Part shown: positions 5,248 to 40,663 of the stretch, in pieces
Position numbering within the stretch: the first letter of the stretch is position 1
How the letters are laid out: each line of letters opens with the position of its first letter
IMG/VR virus record: IMGVR_UViG_3300031576_000041
Coordinates: 1 to 63,617 of that record
Direction: 5' to 3' (one strand)
Source of the DNA: a virus
DNA length: 63,617 nt
Program-made: the position numbers and the translations under genes
Notes under the pieces: model-generated
Database searches by the model: none
What the model was told of the DNA's origin: nothing
Seen by the model: only the letters and a program-made list of their open reading frames with translations

Positions 5248-5341
5248 GGAGGGGTGGGCGAATTGGATAAGCCACCAGTTTTGAAAACTGGCCCTGTATT
5301 GCAAGGTACAGGTGGGGGTTCGAATCCCTCCTCCTCCTCCA
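5248..5341 (+). tRNA. tRNA-Ser (anticodon UGA)
   Basis: A class II tRNA. The acceptor arm is GGAGGGG/CTCCTCC with one G-U pair. The anticodon stem CCAGT/ACTGG closes a 7-base loop TTTGAAA, giving anticodon TGA. A long variable arm (CCTGTA/TACAGG) is typical of Ser. The T-arm is GGGGG-TTCGAAT-CCCTC. The discriminator is T and CCA is encoded. A discriminator G would be usual for Ser. Confidence 0.9.
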
Positions 5342-22137: not shown

Positions 22138-24747
22138 ATGGCTGGTGCACAAAAGACCACCCGAAAGTGCCCTATCTGCCAGCAGACTAAGGAAATCGAG
22201 AACCGCTGCGAGACGTGTAGCAACGAGTGCGCCGTGGAACTTCGGAATCGCCGGTTCGCCGAGAAGAAAGCTGCGGCAGAACAAAAACGCATCGCCGCGC
22301 TCTCCACGCTCTCCAATCTGGAGGCGGCCGTGCTCGTGGCGCTACGGAAGCCCGACTCGACCATCGACACCGTTGCGGAAGCCGTGGACCGTTCGCCCAA
22401 AACGGTCCAGGGCATCGTTGTGTCCCTCCAGAAGAAGAGTTTCAACGTCAAGCTGGCGGCCGGGGGCAGGGCCGCGCTTTCTCCCGAAGTGGAACCTGGC
22501 GGCGAGATTGTTCACCCCCTCGGGGACTTCAAGGGTGGATGGCAGGCATTCGGCGCACTGGGCGATAATCACCTGGGAAGCAAGCATGAGCGCATTGATG
22601 TGTTGCGGGCGCTCTACAAAATCTATGCGAATGAAGGTATCGCCACCGTTTACAACCTCGGCAACTGGATCGAGGGAGAATGCCGGCTGAACACGCACGA
22701 CATCAAGGTGTTTGGACTCGACAGACAGGTCGAGTACTTCATCGAGAACTACCCCCAGGAGAAAGGGATCAAGACGTTCTTCATTTCCGGGGACGACCAC
22801 GAGGGGTGGTACCAAAAACGGGAGAGCCTCGTCATCGGGGAACACGCTATGCTACGCGCCCGAGCCGCCGGCCGCCAAGACCTGGTCTGGATCGGACACC
22901 TGGAAGCCGACGTGGAGCTAAAGGCGAAGGATGGAGGGTCCTGCTGGATGAAGCTGATGCATCCTGGCGGCGGCTCTGCCTATGCGCTGAGTTACGCGCC
23001 ACAAAAAATGGTCGAGTGCGTACCGCTAGACTCCGAAATTCTCTCCGAATCTGGCTGGAAGAAGCACGATGAAGTCTCCACCGGGGAGAGGGTCATGGGA
23101 TACCACATAGCAACCGACCGCTGCGAATGGACTACGGTAACCGGCGTAAATCACGGCAGGGCGGAGGTTGTCACCTACAAGAACGATCAGTTTGTGGTCC
23201 GTTGCACACGGAATCACAAATGGGCGATGGAATGGGAGAGCCGTGGAGGGCCAAACCCGAAGAGCCTAGAGCCGGGGACCTATGTGCGTCGGAGCAAGAT
23301 GCTTACAACCATCGACGAAGCCAAGGAGCGATCACGAATTATTCAAACGGCCGTTGGGCCGGATGGGCCAGGCGCTTCGTGGGACGATGAACACGCGGCC
23401 ATCCTTGATCGCAAAAACGCCACAGGATGGGTTTTGAAGATGACGGCCCCGCAACGCGCCGCCTTCGTTTACGGGATGATGCTCGGCGAGGGGGGATTTT
23501 CCGGGAACGGCAACACGCTAGTGTTTTCACAACGGCCAGGTCCAATCCAAGACGCTTTTGTGCTCGCATGTTTCCTTGAGGGAAGGGCGACAGGGGCAAA
23601 CCGCAAGACCACAAAGAAGTTGAACGGCGAGGACAAGGTGTGCTGCAGGACAACCGTAATGAAGAAGCGTATGCGTATGGCCAGCCGCTCACTGCGAGAA
23701 GTTGCGTCATCCGTTCAAGACGTTTGGTGTCCATCAACGGAGCTTGGTACCTGGGTAATGCGTCAGGGCGATATCGTAACCATCACCGGAAACTCCTTTC
23801 AGGGCGGGGAGAAGCCCCGCGTGCTGCTGCTCGGCCACTACCACAAGTTTGACCACTGCGTCCCGCTTACCTCAGACATCCTGACCCCATCCGGGTGGAG
23901 AAACTTCTACCAAATGGAGGAAGGCGAGACCGTGCTCGGCTACAACACAGAGACAGATAGGTGCGAATGGACCACATTGCGCGCCATCAATCTCTACTAC
24001 GACCTGCCGGTCCGAACCTACAAAAGCTCAGTCTATGAGGTCCGCTGTACCGTGGATCATCGGTGGCCAATGGTCAAAAAGTTTTCTGACAGCGTCCTTA
24101 TGGGCAGCATCGATGCAACACCATGCCAACCCCGTATAGTCCAGGCTGCCGTGGGACCAGAAGGTCTTGGGGTCGGCCAGCTTTCGCATGCAGATTGGCT
24201 CAATCGCGGCGATGGGGTAACCTATGTGCTGCGAATGACAAGCAGCGAGAGACGGACGTTTATCCAGGGCATGACTGTCGGTCGAGGCACGCTCCGTTTT
24301 GGCCAGAACCCCGTAAATGAAGCATTCTTGCTGGCATGTTTCTTGGAGGGGATCGCAACCAGTACGTCGCGTTTGGCGACCAGCTCGAATTGTCTGGTCA
24401 CATCGATGCTACGGAGACGCTTTCGCGAGACGCGCTGCTTGAGGGTTATCGATGAAAGAACGGAACCGACATGGTGTCCCACAACCGATCTGGGCACCTG
24501 GGTAATGCGGCAAGGTAGCACCATTACGATCACCGGGAACTGCTACCCTCGAGAGGTCGACGTTTTGCAGACTGGATGCACGTGCGATCAATCAATTTTC
24601 CTGCGGAAGATGAAGATTCAGGCCCACGTCGGTGGTTGCATCGTCCGATACCATCAGCGGCCTGACGGGGTCCTGAACCGCTTTTCGGTGGAGTGGATTC
24701 CATTCTACGACCGCGACTTCTACAGCAACCGGAGGAGCTTCAGGTGA
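22138..24747 (+). CDS. Metallophosphoesterase precursor with two inteins
   Basis: 869 aa. Residues 1-130 hold a zinc-finger-like CPICQQ...C-E-T-C...C and a helix-turn-helix-like segment (TIDTVAEAVDRSPKTVQ). The enzyme core has GDNH (about residue 142), YNLGNWIEGE, SGDDHEGW and GHYH (566-569), the calcineurin-like metal ligands. Two inteins interrupt it: Cys294-Asn552 before Ser553, and Cys574-Asn801 before Cys802. Removing them leaves a 382-aa enzyme. The strong Shine-Dalgarno GGAGGAGG precedes ATG 22138. Role unknown; similar phage enzymes are usually associated with nucleic acid processing (inference). Confidence 0.9.
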   Translation: MAGAQKTTRKCPICQQTKEIENRCETCSNECAVELRNRRFAEKKAAAEQKRIAALSTLSNLEAAVLVALRKPDSTIDTVAEAVDRSPKTVQGIVVSLQKKSFNVKLAAGGRAALSPEVEPGGEIVHPLGDFKGGWQAFGALGDNHLGSKHERIDVLRALYKIYANEGIATVYNLGNWIEGECRLNTHDIKVFGLDRQVEYFIENYPQEKGIKTFFISGDDHEGWYQKRESLVIGEHAMLRARAAGRQDLVWIGHLEADVELKAKDGGSCWMKLMHPGGGSAYALSYAPQKMVECVPLDSEILSESGWKKHDEVSTGERVMGYHIATDRCEWTTVTGVNHGRAEVVTYKNDQFVVRCTRNHKWAMEWESRGGPNPKSLEPGTYVRRSKMLTTIDEAKERSRIIQTAVGPDGPGASWDDEHAAILDRKNATGWVLKMTAPQRAAFVYGMMLGEGGFSGNGNTLVFSQRPGPIQDAFVLACFLEGRATGANRKTTKKLNGEDKVCCRTTVMKKRMRMASRSLREVASSVQDVWCPSTELGTWVMRQGDIVTITGNSFQGGEKPRVLLLGHYHKFDHCVPLTSDILTPSGWRNFYQMEEGETVLGYNTETDRCEWTTLRAINLYYDLPVRTYKSSVYEVRCTVDHRWPMVKKFSDSVLMGSIDATPCQPRIVQAAVGPEGLGVGQLSHADWLNRGDGVTYVLRMTSSERRTFIQGMTVGRGTLRFGQNPVNEAFLLACFLEGIATSTSRLATSSNCLVTSMLRRRFRETRCLRVIDERTEPTWCPTTDLGTWVMRQGSTITITGNCYPREVDVLQTGCTCDQSIFLRKMKIQAHVGGCIVRYHQRPDGVLNRFSVEWIPFYDRDFYSNRRSFR
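23017..23793 (+). other. Intein 1 in the phosphoesterase (259 aa)
   Basis: Begins with CVPLDSEILSESGW (block A nucleophile Cys). Block B is VRCTRNHKW with the T-x-x-H motif. The end is GTWVMRQGDIVTITGN followed by Ser+1; the penultimate residue is Gly where His is commoner. A degenerate LAGLIDADG-like segment YGMMLGEGGF (E451) lies in the middle, so a homing endonuclease may be present in reduced form. Confidence 0.9.
23857..24540 (+). other. Intein 2 in the phosphoesterase (228 aa)
   Basis: Begins CVPLTSDILTPSGW; block B is VRCTVDHRW; ends GTWVMRQGSTITITGN followed by Cys+1. Clearly homologous to intein 1 (GY-x6-TDRCEWTT in both). The endonuclease remnant reads QGMTVGRGTL with Arg716 where intein 1 has Glu, so it is probably inactive. 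It is inserted four residues after the GHYH metal motif. Confidence 0.9.
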
Positions 24748-25930: not shown

Positions 25931-27154
25931 TGCAAGTCATCAACCGCGAGTACGAGATGGTGCCGGTTGGGAACATCCGACGTCACCCCAGGAACCCAAG
26001 GCGAGGCGACGTGGATGTTATCGCCGAGAGCATCGGAGGAGAACGGGTTTTTCGGCGCATGCGTTGTCCAGAAATCTACCGGTTTCATCTTGGCCGGCAA
26101 CCACAGGTTCGAGGCTGCCAAGAAGAACGGAGCGGAAACCGTCCCTGCCATTTGGGTCGACGTGGATGACGCCACGGCGTTGCGGATTCTCCTGGCGGAC
26201 AACAGGACCAGTGATGTGGCCACCTACGACTTCGAGGTCCTGGCCAGGATTCTGCTGGAGGTCCAGCAGGCGCAGGGGAGCGCGAAGGGTACCGGCTACG
26301 ATGAGGCCGCCGTCCGGCGCGTCATGGCGCAGGCAAACGTCGTGGTAGCGGCGCGGGATGCTGGCCCCACGGAACCACAAGCCCAGGCCGTCTGTCAGAC
26401 CGGTGATATCTGGGTCCTGGGAAGGCACCGCCTGATGATCGGAGATGCATTGGTGGATGCCGGGACTCTGATGGCTGGCGAGCAGGCCGACTTGGTGTTC
26501 ACCGACCCGCCCTACAACGTCGATTACGAAGGCTATACGGAGGATCGTCTAAAGATCGAAGGCGACAGGATGACCGCGGAGCAGTACTGCGACTTCCTGG
26601 CCTCTGCTTTTGTCGCCTACCGAGCCATCATAAAGCCCACGGCCTCCCTCTACGTCTGCCATCCAGCGTTCTGGCAGCGGCAGTTTCAGGATGCCCTCGA
26701 TGGGGCCGGCTTCGAGATGCGATGCCAGATCATCTGGGCCAAGAACACCTTCGCCTGGGGCTTTGGGCGATACAAGTTCCAGCACGAACCGATCTTCTAC
26801 GCGCACGTTGCCGGCGAGAGCGATGCGTGGTATGGCGATAAGTCGCAAACGACGCTGTGGCAGGTCAACAAGCCATCAGCCAACCGCGAGCATCCCACCG
26901 CCAAGCCAATCGAACTGGTCGAGCGCGCTATAGTGAACAGCAGCCGGCAAGGGGACGTGGTCGTCGATCTATTCGGTGGTTCCGGGTCAACTCTGATAGC
27001 GGCCGAAGGCCTGGGCCGTCAGGCGAGACTCATGGAAATCGACCCGGCCTACGGGGATGTGATTATCAGGCGGTGGGCTGGCTCTGAAGGGAAGGCTACG
27101 TTGGGAGGCCAGGCGTTCGAGGAAGTGGCCCGGCGGCGCGACAAACCCGTCTAG
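25930..27154 (+). pseudogene. ParB-like nuclease / DNA methyltransferase fusion, frameshifted
   Basis: True start ATG 25930 (TGATG coupling): MQVINREYEMVPVGNIRRHP. After GCCGAGAGCATC the frame breaks: one extra base in GGAGGAG (26034-26041) moves the ENGFFGACVVQ segment into the frame that stays open to 27154. Downstream are GNHRFEAAKK, the ParB tail, then a methylase with DPPY at about 26507 (DPPYNVDYEG), HPTAKPIELVERAI, and FGGSGSTLIAAEG. The motif order DPPY before FxGxG is the beta-type N6-adenine/N4-cytosine class. Product if the frame is repaired: about 407 aa. It may be a sequencing error or a real switch-off; the sequence does not decide. Confidence 0.8.
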
Positions 27155-33889: not shown

Positions 33890-33966
33890 TGGTGGACCGG
33901 GTGGGGATCGAACCCACGACCTCCTGAATGCAAATCAGGCGCTCTCCCAGCTGAGCTACCTGGCCC
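33890..33966 (-). tRNA. tRNA-Ala (anticodon UGC)
   Basis: Cloverleaf on the minus strand with an anticodon stem CCTGA/TCAGG and loop TTTGCAT (anticodon TGC), T-arm GTGGG-TTCGATC-CCCAC, D-arm GCTC/GAGC, discriminator A and encoded CCA. The G3-U70 pair, the main alanine identity element, is present. One acceptor mismatch at 6-67 (A-C). Confidence 0.9.
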
Positions 33967-35022: not shown

Positions 35023-35099
35023 TGGAGGCCCCCGATGGATTCGGAACCACCGAATGGCCGATTACGAGTCGGCTGCTGTTACCACTGAGCCAGGGGGCC
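35023..35099 (-). tRNA. tRNA-Thr (anticodon CGU), atypical
   Basis: Acceptor GGCCCCC/GGGGGCC, anticodon stem GCCGA/TCGGC with loop CTCGTAA (anticodon CGT), discriminator T, encoded CCA. Unusual points: the D-stem has a mismatch (GCTC/CAGC) and the T-loop is eight bases (TTCCGAAT), one more than normal. It may be a weak or decaying tRNA. Confidence 0.7.
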
Positions 35100-40587: not shown

Positions 40588-40663
40588 TGGTACCCCCGGC
40601 CCGACTTGAACGGGCATCCCGAGCTTAGTAGGCAGGTGCTCTATCCGGTTGAGCTACGGGGGC
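40588..40663 (-). tRNA. Decayed tRNA, Arg(CCU)-derived, anticodon reads ACU
   Basis: Acceptor GCCCCCG/CGGGGGT, D-arm GCTC/GAGC, perfect T-arm GCCCG-TTCAAGT-CGGGC, discriminator A and encoded CCA are tRNA-like. The anticodon arm is CCTGC-CTACTAA-GCTCG, a mutated form of the Arg CCTGC-CTCCTAA-GCAGG: the anticodon is ACT instead of CCT and two stem pairs are lost. It is probably a pseudo-tRNA. Confidence 0.65.

Follow-up and report, generated by a model that had tools for sequence, protein, structure and literature searches.

We find two related inteins in one metallophosphoesterase gene of a tailed phage, and we consider it probable that both are cis-splicing members of a single phage intein family that occupy separate, established insertion sites, here called A and B. 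The window, meaning the whole stretch of DNA analysed, is 63,617 bases long (virus record IMGVR_UViG_3300031576_000041, positions 1 to 63,617). Its reading frame of 869 amino acids at 22138-24747 (+) is divided between exteins and two inteins, I1 and I2 (Table 1), whose removal would leave a joined extein of 382 residues (869-259-228). A first-pass annotation made from the sequence alone had proposed two inteins of 259 and 228 residues lying 21 residues apart in one metallophosphoesterase, and both the splice points and the intein-free homologues agree with it.

Table 1. Coordinates in the window of the exteins, inteins and nuclease motifs of the interrupted gene.
Feature	Position	Strand	Description
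N-extein	22138..23016	+	Cys-rich N-terminus, winged-helix segment and start of the phosphoesterase domain, from homologues and the fold of L006
Intein 1 (I1, site A)	23017..23793	+	259 aa; Cys1 ... Thr257-Gly258-Asn259, +1 Ser
I1 single LAGLIDADG motif GMMLGEG	23473..23493	+	Glu158 codon at 23488-23490
Middle extein	23794..23856	+	21 aa, SFQGGEKPRVLLLGHYHKFDH; metal-ligand motif GHYH at 23833-23844
Intein 2 (I2, site B)	23857..24540	+	228 aa; Cys1 ... Thr226-Gly227-Asn228, +1 Cys
I2 degenerate LAGLIDADG motif GMTVGRG	24268..24288	+	Arg143 (CGA, 24283-24285) replaces Glu/Asp; loop deletions after it
C-extein and stop	24541..24747	+	Overlaps the GTG start of the next gene

The interrupted gene and its host protein

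The comparison with intein-free homologues that the first-pass annotation had called for is clear: 47 such homologues from IMG/VR, 42-56% identical, align to the joined extein without a gap at either junction. The inserts are in frame and absent from these homologues, and the extein is continuous over both junctions, as is expected of inteins. HxGGG and GHYHK could both be located in 124 of 126 fetched loci (a count that includes some contigs fetched twice) and always lie 32 residues apart, a constancy far beyond chance; in the other two the motif pair was not found. The same spacing in the window is 291 residues, which comes to 32 once the 259 residues of I1 are subtracted. The inteins flank the GHYH ligand motif, one on each side, and the sequence they interrupt is near-invariant; the second insertion, previously placed directly after GHYH, really lies four residues on (GHYH-KFDH/C, the slash marking the splice point). 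A profile search with the inteins found no third copy in the window.

The host protein is a phage metallophosphoesterase with a winged helix and a fold like that of PolD-DP1 and Mre11. The phosphoesterase motifs of the N-extein are LGDNHLGSKH, GNWIEGE, GDDHEGW and MHPGGG, and homologues carry calcineurin-like phosphoesterase and HTH domains (Pfam). Modelled with AlphaFold2 (pLDDT 85.9), the intein-free homologue L006 resembles in fold both DP1, the exonuclease subunit of DNA polymerase D (Z 19.7, rmsd 3.2, 229 aligned), and, with a Z of about 15, Mre11, so a role in DNA processing seems likely. Tail genes precede the reading frame, and portal, major head and terminase genes lie farther on, on the opposite strand. 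The gene directly downstream encodes a dNMP kinase, its GTG start overlapping the stop codon as GTGA (24744-24747). Elsewhere in the window, a single reading frame at 25967-27154 joins a ParB-like domain to a DNA methyltransferase, and ARAGORN finds four tRNA genes: Ser at 5248-5341 (+), Ala at 33890-33966 (-), Thr at 35023-35099 (-) and Ser at 40588-40663 (-).

Splicing residues and fold

I1 and I2 are homologous, as had been suggested (40% identity over 260 columns; blastp E 1e-61). Both start CVPL and finish ITGN, and the TGN endings, before Ser in I1 and Cys in I2, had been read correctly in the first pass. Both contain every residue associated with splicing, namely Cys/Ser at position 1, TxxH, a C-terminal Asn and Ser/Thr/Cys at +1. 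They have the position-1 nucleophile and the Thr of TxxH that mark class 1, and the class 3 triad Trp-Cys-Thr is also complete in each, giving catalytic sets of Cys1, Thr64/His67, Trp69, Cys238 and Thr257 in I1 and Cys1, Thr65/His68, Trp70, Cys207 and Thr226 in I2. The class 3 signature positions are Trp B:12, Cys F:4 and Thr G:5 (PMC5222942, PMC7891396), and these three residues, together with Cys1, TxxH and the Asn, are present in 17 of 17 family inteins compared. Throughout this set the Trp sits two residues after the His of TxxH and the Thr two positions ahead of the C-terminal Asn; Gly is penultimate in 16 inteins and Ser in one, and the spacing from Cys F:4 to Thr G:5 is 19 in 16 of the 17. 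Class 3 inteins have been described as having no nucleophile at position 1 (PMC7664689) and I1 and I2 both have Cys1, so from their residues we describe these two and their family as class 1/class 3 hybrids, and do not file them as class 3. This hybrid signature was absent from the first-pass annotation. It does not by itself settle the mechanism, because Cys ranks second among the residues that inteins at large have at F:4, and B:12 of class 1 inteins takes large hydrophobic residues, Trp included (PMC7891396).

The AlphaFold2 model of I1 (pLDDT 77.7, from a nine-sequence alignment) has a Hint fold with an inserted segment. Its top hits in the PDB are inteins, among them TliVMA (Z 16.9, rmsd 3.6, 236 aligned) and the class 3 AceL NrdHF intein (Z 15.5, rmsd 2.2, 143 aligned), and it also matches NpuDnaE (Z 15.2). 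The Hint fold is thus predicted for I1 from its model, and for I2 only from homology to I1. Searches of Pfam, PHROGs and NCBIfam with the two inteins returned nothing above cut-off. A few inteins that mix class 1 and class 3 motifs were reportedly noted by Tori and Perler in 2011.

Relatives and insertion sites

Plain-sequence searches with I1 or I2 singly gave little, and it was alignment-based searches that found the relatives. Their hosts are metallophosphoesterases, DNA polymerase I, a head-tail connector (L073), a DUF6321 protein (L074-L077), tape-measure proteins, and a protein of L070 and L072 that has no library match and for which the label of portal is a guess. In another phage (L056/L057) a relative of I1 stands exactly at site A (QKLIE/C...N/SITGGEKP), and in two phages (L058 and L059) relatives of I2 stand exactly at site B (GHYHKQEY/C...N/CFPRNV), while the uninterrupted gene of L044, whose protein is 79-80% identical to the L058/L059 exteins, provides an empty site B. 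I1 and its site-mate in L056 are 54% identical in exteins that are only 29% identical, which argues for horizontal movement at site A. At site B, intein and extein identity are both about 46%, a pattern compatible with shared descent. A search of IMG/VR for near relatives of the phage carrying the TDRCEWTT stretch in synonymous variants found none.

The family extends further. One distant member is the intein found in DNA polymerase I of many Escherichia and Klebsiella phages (Stephanstirmvirinae; L002, L003, L060); in most records the gene as a whole is called DNA polymerase or hypothetical protein, with the intein left unmarked. Related inteins with Asp in the motif stand at KFDVYP/SAYANGWAAKEYKKAGG in L074:3001-3729, L076:3001-3729 and L077:3001-3762; the host protein in L076 carries the DUF6321 domain, and such insertions occur in several viral contigs. 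A member of 195 residues in a phage family A DNA polymerase (L066:3001-3585) is a natural mini-intein that has lost nearly the whole nuclease segment and kept all splicing residues. A two-motif relative from Nocardia cyriacigeorgica (NZ_BAFY01000188; L069:3001-4065) has Gly at the place of Cys1 and a TAH end, and this short reading frame without a recognisable extein is probably a decayed intein. Its row had an artificial Cys1 in one alignment, and it was left out of the trees and of the 17-intein residue comparison.

Nuclease segments

The difference first noted at the endonuclease motif, Glu against Arg, is real: I1 reads FVYGMMLGEG (Glu158) and I2 reads FIQGMTVGRG (Arg143). Residues 135-214 of the I1 model run in the order helix-strand-strand-helix-strand-strand, which together with the acidic motif gives I1 the features of a LAGLIDADG segment; I2, with Arg143, lacks the acidic residue. 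The intein family also gives a weak profile match to the second motif of I-DmoI (E 0.2). Among the relatives that bear the motif, the catalytic position is always Glu or Asp; I2 alone departs from this. Its Arg143 codon, CGA, is at least two base changes away from any Glu codon and so is not a single sequencing error, and the I2 deletions fall in the strand-loop-strand that follows. I1 and I2 themselves have no close relative from which a dN/dS could be taken. In the L058/L059 pair, the nuclease core has a dN of 0.054 and a dS of 1.3, and the splicing domain a dN of 0.16 with dS saturated. The low dN of the core relative to its dS points to purifying selection on the site-B nuclease in that lineage. 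Given this selection and the conserved acid, nuclease loss in I2 probably came later than the establishment of its lineage, and the putative nuclease of I1 may still be active. The suggestion that only one of the two is still competent therefore stands as far as I2 goes, which lacks the motif acid and nearby loop residues that I1 keeps; for I1 we would soften it to "may be", since I1 has a single LAGLIDADG motif, like all its close relatives.

With one motif per chain the nuclease would have to work as a dimer, and neither site A nor site B has the dyad symmetry expected for a dimeric one-motif enzyme. A tenable though less probable reading is that both nucleases are dead, the single motif being the relic of a two-motif enzyme, and that the inteins persist by splicing cleanly. 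Cousins in tape-measure proteins (a Gordonia phage, L053 and L062) do have two motifs, only the second of which aligns with the metallophosphoesterase inteins, where the first is missing, and I2 has lost its motif acid; but the acid is conserved across inteins in several unrelated host genes, the L058/L059 nuclease core has a lower dN than the splicing domain, and the scattered, site-specific presence of these inteins implies that homing continues in the family.

Origin of the pair

Local duplication and two homing events had been offered as alternatives, and our comparisons disfavour the first. An intein copied to a second site within the gene in this phage lineage, and then diverging, would account for homologous elements 63 bp apart, but other phages carry relatives at exactly the site of each intein, and the identity between I1 and I2 (40%) is below that of I1 with L056 (51-54%) or of I2 with L058 (44%; 44-46% over L056 and L058). 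The tree groups inteins by site and not by genome (I1 with L056, support 86/92; I2 with L058 and L059, 91/85), while a tree of the splicing domain alone does not separate the sites. Forcing I1 and I2 into one clade costs 7.8 log units and is marginally worse, without being rejected at 0.05 (AU test, p-AU 0.0705 and 0.0805), so that a recent local duplication appears disfavoured and, in our judgement, quite improbable.

Sites A and B are themselves slightly more alike than most in-frame pairs: at best they share 15 of 30 bases, and 1% of in-frame pairs are as alike, a figure that becomes 2.8-10% at other widths. We rejected this likeness as proof of ectopic homing because it weakens at other widths and the width was picked post hoc, but it may reflect seeding of one lineage by the other. 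Either one of the two lineages gave rise to the other at some point, or a third gene was the source of both.

Proposed splicing and homing

We suggest that after translation each intein would fold as a Hint domain and excise itself, joining the exteins into the 382-residue enzyme. The N-terminal junction would be attacked by Cys1 or by the block-F Cys (Cys238 in I1, Cys207 in I2), and either could start splicing because neither the class 1 nor the class 3 set lacks a residue. Splicing would then pass to the Ser or Cys at +1 and be resolved by Asn cyclisation. A non-splicing gene product, with all 869 residues kept in the functional protein, is hardly credible: a protein may accept loops close to its active site, but both inserts have all splicing residues and a predicted intein fold, and they break near-invariant sequence beside GHYH.

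For the history of the pair, we favour arrival of each intein by site-specific homing within its own lineage over a recent duplication here. Both appear to carry a reduced, one-motif LAGLIDADG segment, and I1, with its acid, may still home. For I2, which has lost the acid, the only remaining routes of spread would be vertical descent and co-conversion with its neighbour.

The pair bears on a question raised for genes with several inteins, namely whether all of the nucleases are kept functional, or whether one of them travels as a hitch-hiker by co-homing and can then degenerate freely (PMC10643990). In I1 and I2 nature provides a test for the carriage of a dead intein by a live one nearby, and the case material includes an intein with the acid, one without it a short distance away, and genes from other phages that are empty or are occupied at A only or at B only. 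The hybrid signature, conserved over at least five kinds of phage gene, likewise provides a test for the reported idea that class 3 inteins arose from a phage progenitor (PMC3196547). A bolder reading, which we think unlikely, is that the hybrid family is the living form of that progenitor, with either Cys initiating, I2 a passenger and I1 a driver acting as a dimer. Should the pair prove ordinary, it would still be a well-bounded double intein that escapes the Pfam and NCBIfam models.

Comparison with known inteins

Phage metallophosphoesterase inteins, neighbouring inteins and an annotated polymerase intein of this family are already known; the unusual features here are a hybrid signature that is conserved, a nuclease segment with a single motif, and the pairing of two related inteins of which one has a disabled nuclease. 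The Stephanstirmvirinae DNA polymerase I intein (Escherichia phage PaulScherrer, MZ501100, annotated 'intein'; phi92; Klebsiella phage KP13-16) resembles I1 and I2 in its end-to-end homology (about 30% identity), Cys1 with WCT, TGN end, single LAGLIDADG motif and length of about 245 aa, and differs in its DNA polymerase host, its one intein per gene and the Asp as motif acid. The class 3 inteins MchDnaB1, Msm DnaB-1 and AceL NrdHF have the same Trp B:12, Cys F:4 and Thr G:5; MchDnaB1 also shares the Cys-to-Thr spacing of 19 (Cys124 and Thr143; PMC7664689), and AceL NrdHF is among the best structural matches of I1. These inteins have no position-1 nucleophile and generally no Thr of TxxH, whereas in I1 and I2 both Cys1 and Thr B:7 are retained, and Gly takes the place of the penultimate His.

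Compared by description, the mycobacteriophage RDF intein (Bethlehem gp51), which lies in a metallophosphoesterase-domain protein and has a penultimate Gly (PMC5050341), is like I1 and I2 in its phage metallophosphoesterase host and its insertion beside a conserved motif, but is treated as class 1 and occurs once per gene (PMC5050341). Neighbouring inteins in one gene have been described in haloarchaeal MCM (MCM-a/MCM-d) and in Mycobacterium smegmatis DnaB (PMC10643990, PMC6195587), where, as here, two inteins lie close together, each with its own site. I1 and I2 differ from these pairs in that the gene belongs to a phage, the sites are only 21 residues apart, the inteins are related and one motif is disabled.
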